Source of the DNA: Sulfurovum sp.
GTDB taxonomy: Bacteria > Campylobacterota > Campylobacteria > Campylobacterales > Sulfurovaceae
Assembly: GCA_027082955.1 (NCBI GenBank)
Contig: JALWTA010000044.1
Coordinates: 1-36,721, forward strand
Length of the DNA stretch: 36,721 nucleotides
Reading direction: 5' to 3'
The notes beneath the pieces were generated by a model. That model had not been told where the DNA came from. It did no database searches and was given only the letters and a program-made list of their open reading frames with translations. Both the position numbers and the translations under genes were made by a program. Shown one piece after another: positions 12,773 through 36,721 of the stretch (positions are counted from its first letter, which is position 1; each line of letters opens with the position of its first letter).

Positions 12773-12836
12773 GGTGCACAGCACCCTACATTATTCTTAT
12801 CAAAAATTCTAATTTCTAATTTCTAATTTCTAATTT
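12773..12836 (+). repeat. palindrome plus heptad tract A
   Basis: A short palindrome GGTGC-ACA-GCACC followed by CTACA at 12773-12790, then after 15 nt a tract with a 7-nt period: ATTCTAA once and TTTCTAA three times (12806-12833), then TTTA. It lies between divergent rsmH and the aldolase-like gene, ending just before the TATAAT of the latter. It shares its plan with the elements at 24299, 24904 and 25523. Confidence 0.7.
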
Positions 12837-12878: not shown

Positions 12879-13451
12879 ATGGACAAACACCTCATCGACG
12901 ATATCAAACATGTTTCCCTTTCGCTTTTTGAAAAAAACTTTTTCGGTGTCTATCACGGTTCCATCTCTGCACGTGTCTCGAAAAACAGTTTCATTATAAA
13001 CTCTAAAGATACGATTCTTAACGAAGTGACAGAATCCTCTCTTGTCAAACTTGACTGCCAAAAACGTGACTATCGATGGAATCTGGCCAATACCGATGTG
13101 CATATTCACGAACACATTTATGAGAGTATCCCCAATGCAAAGTATGTCTCCTATACCATGCCTCCCTATGCTACGGCATATTCACTAAAACACGGGAAAG
13201 TATCACCGCAGGATTATTATGGGAAACAACTTCTTGGGGAGATCATTATCTTCGATCCAGGACATTTCGATGACTGGATTGAACGGGCACCCTATGAAGT
13301 GAGCCGATTTTTTCAGGACCATGAAAGCCATCTGCTTCTTATCAAAGGCTTTGGAGTGATTGCCTACGATCGTGACATTACTGAAATGGCAAAGAAAATT
13401 GCCGTTTTGGAAAATAGTTGCAGGCTCCTTGCTCTCTCTGCTTCCGTTTAA
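12879..13451 (+). CDS. class II aldolase/adducin-like protein without metal ligands
   Basis: A 190-residue protein with the class II aldolase/adducin fold signature: GSISARV (27-33, family GNISxR), an HIYESIPNAKYV helix-strand unit and PPYATAYSL (95-103). True enzymes bind zinc through H-x-H before PP(Y/H) and a third His in NHG. Here these are Y92-T-M94 and G-F158-G, and the catalytic Glu position appears to be D73. It is therefore probably a pseudoenzyme or a differently acting family member. Clear TATAAT and AAAGG precede the ATG. It is divergent from rsmH. Confidence 0.8.
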   Translation: MDKHLIDDIKHVSLSLFEKNFFGVYHGSISARVSKNSFIINSKDTILNEVTESSLVKLDCQKRDYRWNLANTDVHIHEHIYESIPNAKYVSYTMPPYATAYSLKHGKVSPQDYYGKQLLGEIIIFDPGHFDDWIERAPYEVSRFFQDHESHLLLIKGFGVIAYDRDITEMAKKIAVLENSCRLLALSASV

Positions 13452-23323: not shown

Positions 23324-24169
23324 TCATTTTGAATCTTCACTTTCAGGCTTCATACACCCCGAACACTCATAAGAGATAATCTTTGGTTGTGGCAGATCGA
23401 TGCGTGCGGCTGTCAACTTTCCGCCCCAAAGACATCCCGTGTCAAGCGCCAAGACATTTTCATCCTCATAAAAGCCAAGCGTTGACCAGTGCCCAAAAAC
23501 GATCTTTAGTTCAATCTCTTTGCGGTTTTCACACTCAAACCACGGTTTCATCCCTTTTGCACGTACTTGAGGTGTTGGTGCGCCTTTTTGTTTAAAATCA
23601 AGCCTATGGTCTTTGTAACAGTAACGCATACGGGTAAAGGCACTGACAATATAACGGTCAATATCCTCTTCACTCGCCTTGCGCTCAAAACGCTCTACTC
23701 CGTTTTGAAACATCTTTTTTAGCCATACATCGGCATGATCGCTGCGCAGCTTCTCCTCTATACGTTTGGCATACGCCATCGCCATACCAAGGTCAAACTC
23801 CGGGCTGATACCCGCATGTGCCATACAGTAGCCAAGTTTGAAGTCGGTATGCAAAAAGGGCTGAGAGCGCAGCCAGTCAATAAGCTCTTTGGCTTTGGGA
23901 GAGGCAAGGATAGGATCAATGGTCGGATTGGATTTTTTGATGCCGTAGTAGGCAGCTATGAGTGTGAGGTCGTGATTACCAAGTACCATATGTACTGAGT
24001 CTTTGATGCTGTAGAGATACTCCAAAACCGCTAACGAATCATCCCCACGGTTGACAACATCCCCCGCCAGCCACAACCTGTCATAACGCGGGTCAAACTG
24101 GATTGTTTGCAGCAATTTCTGAAAAGAGCTGTAACACCCCTGAATATCGCCGATAGCCCATGTACTCAT
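23324..24169 (-). CDS. apaH: symmetrical bis(5'-nucleosyl)-tetraphosphatase
   Basis: A 281-residue metallophosphatase that splits Ap4A into two ADP, and may act on Np4-capped RNA. Motifs are GDIQGCY (7-13), GDVVNRGDDS, LGNHDLTL and MAHAGISP. I use ATG 24169, which gives the typical family length and starts MSTWAIGDIQGC. An in-frame extension to 24232 adds only a peptide encoded by intergenic heptads. GGAG is 8 nt before the ATG, but both lie inside a perfect hairpin, suggesting controlled translation. It is downstream of the glycosylase gene on the same strand. Confidence 0.92.
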   Translation of the reverse strand: MSTWAIGDIQGCYSSFQKLLQTIQFDPRYDRLWLAGDVVNRGDDSLAVLEYLYSIKDSVHMVLGNHDLTLIAAYYGIKKSNPTIDPILASPKAKELIDWLRSQPFLHTDFKLGYCMAHAGISPEFDLGMAMAYAKRIEEKLRSDHADVWLKKMFQNGVERFERKASEEDIDRYIVSAFTRMRYCYKDHRLDFKQKGAPTPQVRAKGMKPWFECENRKEIELKIVFGHWSTLGFYEDENVLALDTGCLWGGKLTAARIDLPQPKIISYECSGCMKPESEDSK

Positions 24170-24188
24170 TGGAGGAACTCCAATGAGT
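24164..24188 (-). promoter_or_regulatory. hairpin sequestering the apaH ribosome-binding site and start codon
   Basis: Perfect inverted repeat with 11-bp arms (ACTCATTGGAG / CTCCAATGAGT) and a 3-nt loop. In the mRNA the 5' arm ends with the GGAG ribosome-binding site and the 3' arm contains the AUG at 24169-24167, so both signals are base-paired. This would inhibit initiation until melted by temperature, a protein or upstream translation. A DNA operator is the alternative. Confidence 0.55.
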
Positions 24189-24218
24189 GAGTGAAGAGTG
24201 AATAGTGAAGAGTGAAGA
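24184..24218 (-). repeat. heptad tract F (opposite orientation)
   Basis: Five 7-nt units on +: TGAGTGA, GTGAAGA, GTGAATA, GTGAAGA, GTGAAGA. Read on minus they are CTCTTCA-type heptads running into the apaH hairpin. Unlike the other tracts they lie at the 5' end of a gene and no GGTGCGT palindrome is adjacent. Positions 24219-24298 hold nothing I recognise. Confidence 0.6.
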
Positions 24219-24298
24219 GTTGTGGTATGCATTGCAAGGCAAAGCTAAAATCTAATTTTAATTCCTCATTCAAATGCAGCTCCTCATTTTTATTTCTT

Positions 24299-24383
24299 GG
24301 TGCGTGGTTACGCACCCTACCTTAACCCTAAATTCTAAATCCTAAACCCTCAGCACTCAACACTCAACGCTGATCACTGATCC
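24299..24383 (+). repeat. palindrome plus heptad tract B
   Basis: Palindrome GGTGCGT-GGTT-ACGCACC (24299-24316), then CTAC, then nine consecutive heptads each starting with CT (24321-24383), such as CTAAATC, CTAAACC, CTCAACA and CTGATCA. The stop codon of the DNA glycosylase gene (24364-24366) is inside the seventh heptad, so its last five residues (ISDQR) are encoded mostly by the tract. Confidence 0.75.
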
Positions 24384-24861
24384 CCAAAGCTTCCTTGTAT
24401 TTCGCTGCTTTCTCCTCAAGCTTCATCGCCGCATACGCCGGAGAGGGAGAAGGCAGATAGACCCGTTCTATCTCAAGGTAGCCAAAGTGTGTTTCAAAAA
24501 GTGCTTGTGCCTTTTTGCCTGTAAAAGCGATCTTTTGGATGCTTGGGTAGGATTCAAGCAGTGAGGGAATATCATTGACTATCTCATCTTCAAGCGAACT
24601 GTCAAGCGAATTCTCACGGCTGCAGCTGCCTATCATATCCCAAAGTCCAAGCTTCATCTCTTTGAGCAGCCACAGCTTTTGGTCACGGTTGTGAACTGGA
24701 TATCCTGTAATCCCTTCAAGAATCTTCCAAAACTGGTTTTGAGGATGGGCATAGTAGAAGTTGTTTTCAAACGATTTGATACTTGGAAAAGAGCCGAGTA
24801 TTAGCGTATGGGTATCGCTAAAAACAATAGGATCAAACGGGTGTTGTAACGTTTTATTCAC
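24364..24861 (-). CDS. DNA-deoxyinosine (hypoxanthine/uracil) glycosylase, UDG superfamily
   Basis: A 165-residue base-excision repair glycosylase of the UDG fold, closest to the family 6 hypoxanthine-DNA glycosylases. Signatures: HPFDPIVF at the N-terminus, ILGSFPS (21-27), FYYAHPQNQFW (35-45), GLWDMIGSCSRENSLD (72-87) and the minor-groove loop LPSPSPAYA (136-144). It removes deaminated bases from DNA. The start is GTG at 24861 with AGGAG 6 nt before. The C-terminal residues lie in heptad tract B. The exact substrate within the superfamily is inferred. Confidence 0.85.
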   Translation of the reverse strand: MNKTLQHPFDPIVFSDTHTLILGSFPSIKSFENNFYYAHPQNQFWKILEGITGYPVHNRDQKLWLLKEMKLGLWDMIGSCSRENSLDSSLEDEIVNDIPSLLESYPSIQKIAFTGKKAQALFETHFGYLEIERVYLPSPSPAYAAMKLEEKAAKYKEALGISDQR

Positions 24862-24903
24862 GATCTTCTCCTACAAAAATATAGTATTATTTTAAACCTA
24901 TTC

Positions 24904-24981
24904 GGTGCGTGATTACGCACCCTACCTAAATCCTTAAACCTTAAACCTTAATCCTCACCCCTCAGCGCTCATCACTTACAC
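24904..24981 (+). repeat. palindrome plus heptad tract C
   Basis: GGTGCGT-GATT-ACGCACC (24904-24921), CTAC, then eight CT-initial heptads (24926-24981), for example CTTAAAC twice, CTCACCC, CTCAGCG and CTTACAC. The stop codon of the downstream-reading minus-strand membrane-protein gene is at 24972-24974, in heptad seven. Confidence 0.75.
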
Positions 24982-25451
24982 GCCTTCTGCATATTCCTCA
25001 CCATCAACACCAACAACGCCAACGCAAAAATCTTGAAGTTGATCTCACTCCCTTTATGTGTAGCGACAAATGCAGCAGACTGGGTCATCTTCTCCCCTGC
25101 AAGCTGCATGGTCAAGATATCTGGCAGATAGTAGTGCCCAAACATCAATCCTGTTGCTACCACAAAAAAGGTCGCCACCTGCGTAATGGTATCACGCTCG
25201 AACTTTTTGTACTTGTACCCCTCATAGAGCACTACGGCAATGACCGTAAAGTCCACCAGATAGGAGAGCCGTACAAAATTCTGCGTCATGATCAGCCCTT
25301 CTTGAAAGTGACTTAACACATCTGAGCCAAGCCACTGCTCGGTATGGAACGTAACCGGTGCTACCACGATCCCGGCAAAGAGTCCTGCTCCAAGTGTTAC
25401 TCCAAGCAGTATAAGATAGGCTATCGTTACGCGTCTAAAAATTGGTTTCAT
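24972..25451 (-). CDS. DUF4149-like four-helix membrane protein
   Basis: A 159-residue integral membrane protein with four hydrophobic segments at about 10-33, 60-80, 88-110 and 135-152. The first contains LGVTLGAGLFAGIVVAPVTFH, quoted in part as AGLFAGIVVAPVTF, the pattern of DUF4149/TMEM205-like proteins, and a conserved-looking FVRLSYLVDF follows. The function is unknown. AAGGAAA lies 7 nt before the ATG at 25451. The last codons and stop lie in heptad tract C. Confidence 0.7.
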   Translation of the reverse strand: MKPIFRRVTIAYLILLGVTLGAGLFAGIVVAPVTFHTEQWLGSDVLSHFQEGLIMTQNFVRLSYLVDFTVIAVVLYEGYKYKKFERDTITQVATFFVVATGLMFGHYYLPDILTMQLAGEKMTQSAAFVATHKGSEINFKIFALALLVLMVRNMQKACK

Positions 25452-25522
25452 ATCTGTTTCCTTTTGTTTCTCTTTTGATATTTTTGCCTGAATATCAAAA
25501 ATTTATATTGTGATCTATTTTT

Positions 25523-25584
25523 GGTGCGTGGTTACGCACCCTACATTCACTGTTCACTACTACTTACTACCTGCTACCTACTCA
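25523..25584 (+). repeat. palindrome plus heptad tract D
   Basis: GGTGCGT-GGTT-ACGCACC (25523-25540), CTAC, a short irregular spacer, then five 7-nt units at 25550-25584: CTGTTCA, CTACTAC, TTACTAC, CTGCTAC, CTACTCA. The prmC stop codon (25578-25580) is in the last unit. Confidence 0.7.
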
Positions 25585-36530: not shown

Positions 36531-36561
36531 GATATCTCCATATTTAAAAATATTACCATTT

Positions 36562-36624
36562 CTACCTTCTACCTTCTACCTTCTACCTTTTTAATTTTTA
36601 ATTTCTAATTTCTAATTTCTAATT
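36562..36624 (+). repeat. heptad tract E
   Basis: Nine 7-nt units: CTACCTT four times (36562-36589), TTTAATT twice (36590-36603), TCTAATT three times (36604-36624). It has no GGTGCGT palindrome. The stop codon of the right-edge gene (36619-36621) is in the last unit, and the tract fills most of the gap to lpxK. Confidence 0.75.
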
Positions 36625-36721
36625 TTCCCCGCACTCTTTCGCTCCAAGCCTCAATATCTCCTCACACGCAAACCCCGCCGCTTTACGCGCCTTGACATTG
36701 ATGTGTGGACGATGTTTCTCC
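36619..36721 (-). CDS. 3' end of an unidentified gene (partial)
   Basis: An open minus-strand frame enters from the right edge (34 full codons) and ends with TAG at 36621-36619. The visible peptide includes RPHINVKARKAAGFACEEIL and ends GAKECGEN. It reads like a genuine protein C-terminus, but I cannot name the family. In some relatives nadE lies next to lpxK, but the peptide does not clearly support that. Its last codons and stop lie at the edge of heptad tract E. Confidence 0.6.
   Translation of the reverse strand, partial: EKHRPHINVKARKAAGFACEEILRLGAKECGEN

Follow-up and report, generated by a model that had tools for sequence, protein, structure and literature searches.

Heptad repeats at gene borders in Sulfurovum as the middle module of a polar three-part element

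Heptad repeats and related elements described at gene borders

Tandem heptanucleotides that respect gene borders have been described before. The GGGAATC heptads of Xanthomonas and the GGGGAYT heptads of Nostoc are intergenic and lie at most 50 bp downstream of ORFs on the coding strand, some of them overlapping the stop codon; upstream of ORFs they lie on the non-coding strand, and Xanthomonas also has convergent inverted pairs (Rehm et al. 2015, PMC4692102). The Xanthomonas unit is free of stop codons in all three frames (PMC4692102). The TAACTGA repeats of marine Beggiatoaceae carry stops in all frames and are confined to ORF ends and intergenic DNA, and the argument that such heptads are tolerated since they close all frames was made first for them (MacGregor 2015, PMC4679880). 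GTAG REPs often provide the TAG stop of flanking ORFs, and Sulfurovum NBC37-1 is among the genomes listed with GTAG repeats (Di Nocera et al. 2013, PMC3733652). Tandem repeats with units of 52 or 20-21 nt in Bacillus combine a constant length with a variable sequence (Subirana and Messeguer 2021, PMC8161180).

The Sulfurovum repeat described here shares period 7, intergenic location and border geometry with the heptads of Rehm et al. However, those have one G-rich unit per genome and a proposed G-quadruplex, whereas Sulfurovum has many units and no G-quadruplex requirement, the commonest (AAGAGTG, AAATTAG and AAAAATT) being without GGG and so lacking runs of at least three G per unit. It differs further in having stops in the unit, palindromes at the gene edge and, at the far end, a conserved hairpin; the word "hairpin" does not occur in PMC4692102. 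Like the TAACTGA repeats, it places stop-bearing heptads at ORF ends, but TAACTGA is one fixed unit, directed mostly towards start codons and reported, in the part of PMC4679880 drawn on here, without a hairpin partner; the Sulfurovum unit differs, and TAACTGA is absent among 28 consensus units. The likeness to GTAG REPs and their RAYT system (PMC3733652) is that the far-end module at three tracts is itself a GTAG-tagged palindrome; unlike them, a second hairpin, GGTWTGC, carries no tag, heptads precede it, and the element does not track Y1_Tnp genes. As in the Bacillus repeats, sequence varies both within and among species but unit length does not; the unit here, however, is of 7 nt, and the abstract of PMC8161180 reports neither border polarity nor a hairpin.

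Earlier papers already cover heptad abundance, the geometry at borders, the argument from stops in all frames, and GTAG REPs (PMC4679880, PMC4692102, PMC3733652), and generality across phyla rests on this literature. A search of the open literature returned no description of a three-part element, of gene-edge inverted copies or of unit turnover at a fixed period. The Xanthomonas and Nostoc geometry was reported without an accepted cause; Sulfurovum has the same geometry with unrelated units and offers two clues beside the heptads, namely perfect inverted copies of gene edges and renewed hairpins. With sequences changing under a constant period and polarity, the focus moves from the repeat's content to its making, a question that the make-up of the hisA, ruvB and purH borders across species renders testable. 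For annotation, the border repeat accounts for the variability of C-termini and of start regions among these bacteria.

Period-7 tracts in the window and in the genome

The window is the whole stretch of 36,721 nt that was analysed, a contig (C44) of a Sulfurovum MAG assembly of 2.10 Mb in 48 contigs. Together with 800 kb of further stretches it forms an own-genome sample of 837 kb, about 40% of the genome. Comparison drew on 80 prmC loci of relatives (by PrmC nearly all Sulfurovum), on other genomes sampled as 20 stretches of 20 kb, and on three genes at 90 orthologous loci; the genomes compared are MAG assemblies. Genes were called with a home-made caller built on a codon-pair model, and a tract was counted as dense at 16 of 21 period matches. 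A purine consensus, (TRRNRRK)n, was dropped as a pattern for scanning the collection, as its reversed control matched about equally often.

The window holds six period-7 tracts (Table 1), and other non-triplet periods give no comparable tracts. The preliminary description had three adjacent minus-strand genes ending within such tracts. This is so for the glycosylase gene, whose stop and final codons (C-terminus GISDQR) are supplied by heptad units; the DUF4149 stop, in contrast, lies at the gene-side edge of its tract, and the prmC stop falls in the first unit of a weaker one. A further gene said to end likewise at the right edge is a minus frame that does close at 36619, adjoining its tract, but it is cut by the contig end (36721). 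Overlooked at that stage were a REP hairpin joined to each of the three tracts on the same strand, a tract at a start border, and the genome-wide abundance of such tracts.

Table 1. Border features of the window (positions in the 36,721-nt stretch)
Feature	Position	Strand	Basis
Heptad tract of AAATTAG units; gene 12879-13451, to which the purine strand is antisense, starts 42 nt further on	12799..12836	(-)	period-7 scan
Calcineurin-like phosphoesterase (metallophosphatase) gene, start codon within module A	23324..24169	(-)	gene calls, Pfam
Module A at phosphoesterase start border: ACTCATTGGAG-gaa-CTCCAATGAGT	24164..24188	(+)	11-bp perfect palindrome
Heptad tract, AGTGAAG-type, at phosphoesterase start border, opposite orientation	24189..24224	(+)	period-7 scan
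Match of covariance model R1: last heptads and GGTATGC hairpin	24203..24254	(+)	47.7 bits, E 7.6e-10
GTAG-tagged REP hairpin GTAGGGTGCGTAACCACGCACC, far end of glycosylase tract	24299..24320	(-)	exact-sequence search
Heptad tract, graded units, purine strand minus, leading off glycosylase gene	24320..24384	(-)	period-7 scan
Uracil-DNA-glycosylase-family gene	24364..24861	(-)	ORF list, Pfam PF03167
GTAG REP GTAGGGTGCGTAATCACGCACC, far end of DUF4149 tract	24904..24925	(-)	exact-sequence search
Heptad tract immediately 3' of DUF4149 gene	24925..24971	(-)	period-7 scan
DUF4149 membrane protein gene	24972-25451	(-)	stop 24972-24974
GTAG REP GTAGGGTGCGTAACCACGCACC beyond prmC tract	25523..25544	(-)	exact-sequence search
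Weaker heptad tract, GTAGCAG/GTAGTAA units, at prmC stop (25578-25580)	about 25543..25584	(-)	period-7 scan
Heptad tract, AAATTAG then GGTAGAA units, at stop (36619) of open minus frame	36560..36625	(-)	period-7 scan

The glycosylase tract equals the orthologous tract of one relative (L055) plus exactly one 7-nt unit, while orthologues without heptads have other C-terminal ends with the next gene abutting; between the glycosylase and phosphatase genes, which abut or overlap in most distant relatives, the heptads yield new C-termini. At the DUF4149 border, two relatives (L051 and L056) have orthologous tracts with common graded units, and in L056 another GTAG REP occupies the same place after related heptads. 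At prmC, the stop TAG coincides with the GTAG tag of a REP in many relatives (L052, L056, L062, L065, L070, L072, L075), the stem sequences of these REPs varying from species to species.

Period 7 is the sole non-triplet period with dense tandem tracts, 33 of them against 0-2 for any other non-triplet period in the first 437 kb. The full 837 kb hold 75 period-7 tracts, of which 59 lie outside confident genes, each with a purine-rich strand. Of 58 usable tracts in the own genome, 51 turn the 5' end of this strand to a gene and the 3' end away from it, in line with the fixed orientation relative to genes that had been anticipated, and the purine strand likewise runs outward in 27 of 29 tracts from stretches of other genomes and in 18 of 26 tracts at the prmC-area loci of relatives, where gaps are very short. 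The clustering at stop codons foreseen in the preliminary description exists as a clustering at gene ends, but start codons are bordered likewise; period 7, a mostly intergenic position and a purine-rich strand pointing outward from ORFs at both ends mark these heptads as border repeats of the type described by Rehm et al. At 33 of the 35 stop borders the purine strand's 5' end lies -28 to 25 nt from the gene, and at the 23 start borders mostly 7 to 65 nt; the closeness at stop borders is partly a given, as the ORF is closed by the tract itself, and that at start borders is not. Whole border repeats often occur in pairs facing one another within a single intergenic gap.

A border holds 3-10 copies of a purine-rich 7-mer whose sequence varies among loci and species. 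Units drift gradually along a tract, adjacent units having an identity of 0.846 against 0.776 after shuffling, with neighbours more alike in 28 of 30 tracts. The remaining 16 of the 75 tracts lie within confident coding sequence in both orientations (for example, C14:17595 in L040; C38:47210, 49248, 55732 and 55831 in L136; C12:16367 in L036; all G000) and give heptapeptide-like stretches such as KLGMRNEELGIEDNE; their units are mixed and the reading frame stays open.

Anatomy of the three-part border repeat

The heptads are the middle module (B) of a polar, three-part, non-coding border repeat of the Sulfurovum lineage. Outward from the gene, the order is a gene-edge palindrome (module A, often present), the heptads, and a hairpin (module C). 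Module A lies between gene and heptads and repeats the gene's own edge as a perfect inverted copy, in many cases with the start or stop codon included. Of 36 elements, 14 (about 40%) have a stem of at least 8 bp, a length reached by 0.4% of the 1508 control edges (p 3e-20); other genomes add 7 such cases among 34 tracts. With stems of at least 6 bp, the palindrome is found at 54% of 26 start borders (3% of 1355 controls) and at 17% of 52 stop borders (4% of controls), and it is missing at this length from roughly half of the elements. In many start-border cases the loop holds or adjoins the Shine-Dalgarno sequence and the stem includes the start codon. For example, the phosphoesterase palindrome takes in the start codon (24167-24169) and a putative Shine-Dalgarno GGAG.

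Two hairpin types are enriched 3' of the tracts as module C. The first is the GTAG REP, and the three listed in Table 1 are palindromes with GTAG at one foot and many intergenic copies; the form GTAGGGTGCGTnnnnACGCACC, seen at all three of these tracts, has 37 exact matches in the genome against 0 for its reversed control. The second, GGTWTGC-N5-loop-N5'-GC, has a renewed 5-bp stem and a T-rich tail, often TTTTATT, and lacking the GTAG tag it does not belong with the GTAG REPs. All of the roughly 22 genuine GGTWTGC hairpins in the sample come after heptads in a fixed phase, and the reversed sequence gives one chance match. The example at the phosphoesterase border (24229-24245) has one stem mismatch. 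With a covariance model of this hairpin, the own genome yields at least 75 copies and 54 of 78 Sulfurovum genomes have matches, and outside the family there is almost nothing. As the model was trained on perfect stems, it is backed by a search with the end anchors only, in which pairing is not required: hits that bear heptads have perfect stems except one with a single mismatch, and hits without heptads pair randomly. In the sample the model has 37 hits, whose cells are paired in 98.8% of cases and include 44 two-sided changes and just 2 G-U pairs, a pattern that suggests copying at the DNA level over selection on RNA. Heptad tracts number 34 in 200 kb of element-bearing genomes and 0 in 120 kb of congeners without the element. 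A known RNA family was excluded, as the window has no Rfam 15 match above the gathering score. In one 200-bp gap upstream of ruvB (C38:99025-99222, L138) three GGTWTGC units occur together, one facing the other two.

Modules A and B also mostly occur together at orthologous borders. In a comparison of ruvB (start), hisA (start) and purH (stop), each with as many as 30 species, 20 of 27 borders that have heptads show the palindrome, against 6 of 60 that lack them (p 4e-9, a nominal value given that the species are related), and 3 of these 6 are elements with only 1-2 heptads. The units of hisA change from species to species (GATTGAT, AGTGAAT, AGGAGGT, AGTGATG, GAGTGAA and AGTGGGT) and the arms differ too, while the architecture is constant.

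Origin of the border repeat and the place of its stop codons

Taken together, the outward polarity, the edge palindromes, the drift of units at a fixed period and the renewal of both hairpin arms could all be yielded by one outward-copying process. We hypothesize that DNA synthesis both creates and renews the borders, extending the strand that leaves the gene 3' end first. This 3' end would fold back and copy the gene edge, giving module A; repeated slippage by 7 nt would then give module B; and the copying would be bounded by a gene edge that selection preserves on one side and by a dispersed hairpin repeat, module C, on the other. The stop codons would follow from a unit of purines plus T, permitting harmless overwriting of 3' ends without being a function. 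We infer both the copying and its action on DNA rather than RNA, and we give roughly even chances to the proposal that polar DNA copying of this kind, foldback followed by 7-nt slippage outward from gene borders, makes the three-part repeat and that the stops are not its function. Foldback copying alone explains neither why the outward strand is purine-biased nor why the period is constant, and the perfect arms could alternatively be kept up by selection on RNA or DNA hairpins.

The main rival, though an unlikely one in our judgement, is control at the RNA level, with a hairpin over the Shine-Dalgarno sequence and start codon and a terminator-like hairpin beyond the heptads regulating translation or ending transcription in both directions. 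The Shine-Dalgarno position in or near the loop of start-border palindromes fits this reading, as do the predicted fold of the phosphoesterase palindrome with its flanks (-16.2 kcal/mol, z -4.0) and the frequent TTTTATT after hairpin C; in E. coli, moreover, REPs no more than 15 nt from a stop codon can stall ribosomes (PMC12306157). Yet the same palindromes occur at stop codons, and hairpin C, despite its T-rich tail, is not a favoured RNA fold (z -0.3 in the one case folded), has almost no G-U pairs, and draws no intrinsic terminator prediction at the window tracts. The functions of the bordering genes are also unrelated. Hairpins with GGA in the loop have a natural reader in CsrA, but the CsrA gene was not found and this candidate was rejected.

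A mobile non-autonomous element of the REPIN or MITE kind, inserted whole beside target hairpins and moved by a Y1/RAYT transposase, also seems improbable. The dispersed, patchy occurrence across species, the inverted pairs of units, the Y1_Tnp genes in many of the genomes and the one unit that adjoins a GTAG REP would suit such an element. In relatives the adjacent genes are found without the repeat, although precise filled and empty junctions were not seen. Hairpin A was rejected as a pre-existing insertion target, since heptad-free orthologous borders are mostly without the palindrome, and the variation of units and arms at one locus between species is unlike that of a moved copy. The Y1/RAYT transposase is itself unlikely as the mover and was rejected: Y1_Tnp does not track element count, the element-rich G012 (42) and G037 (53) having 0 Y1_Tnp genes and G055 (5 Y1_Tnp) and G073 (8 Y1_Tnp) having no element, and no copies of the element flank the Y1 loci of the own genome. 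At these loci (L151-L153) no GTAGGGTGCGT REP lies within the 3 kb examined, unlike a RAYT gene flanked by its REPs.

More doubtful is a dedicated, telomere-like 3'-end extension activity at gene-border breaks, which would combine foldback, purine-rich 7-nt additions and terminal hairpins and so rewrite intergenic DNA while the period stays 7.

The preliminary description proposed that the heptads are kept, or tolerated, as a frame-independent translation stop, three units closing all frames at gene ends. All three minus-strand frames are indeed shut in each of the four tracts it named, and its expectation of a stop excess over shuffled units is borne out: with bases permuted within each unit as control, 73 of 75 consensus units hold a stop on the purine strand against 56.8 expected, and at stop borders 35 of 35 against 29.2. 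The TRR trinucleotides of the units are skewed to TAG (171), TGA (153) and TAA (64) over TGG (20). Because a unit consists of purines and one or two T, about three in four shuffled units already hold a stop. What already contradicts a stop function is that start borders have the same polarity and the same excess (23 of 23 units against 17.2 expected) on the strand antisense to the bordering gene; thus the stops are a property of unit make-up (purines and T, with TGG rare) and not an adaptation of gene ends. The start-border tract of the phosphoesterase gene has 0 stops on that gene's sense strand, its stops being antisense only, and in Xanthomonas the border geometry recurs with GGGAATC heptads, whose unit is stop-free (PMC4692102). 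Translation stop is unlikely as the purpose of the tracts, and as a function it was rejected on account of the start-border tracts, which bear the same stops on the wrong strand; the reading as a whole has become very improbable. Toleration because every frame closes is a fair account of 3' borders, where 22 of 35 tracts start before the gene's stop: the stops make a tract harmless at gene 3' ends and so let the repeat overwrite them.

Least credible are ordinary heptanucleotide slippage repeats surviving only in intergenic DNA, for although in many bacteria no long simple repeat is commoner than the heptad (Mrazek 2007, as cited in PMC4679880) and orthologous tracts differ by one unit, slippage predicts neither the outward polarity at both ends, nor the gene-edge palindromes, nor the fixed link to hairpin C.

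A few period-7 arrays stand apart. The plant-type telomere repeat TTTAGGG, in about 8 copies, lies in intergenic DNA distant from both genes (L045:4820-4883; G000 C15:24820-24883), and about 9 copies of GGATTAA lie at C15:21419; both arrays are long and perfect and have no hairpin partner. In one other genome (G135), four heptad tracts share 300 bp inside one called gene (L196:7829-8131), and the same 20-kb stretch also has two tracts with a period of 8 nt. In a genome from another family of the order (G211), two heptad tracts lie between convergent genes (L210:3241-3348) and the GGTWTGC model gives only one marginal match, so that border heptads reach beyond the family of Sulfurovum.
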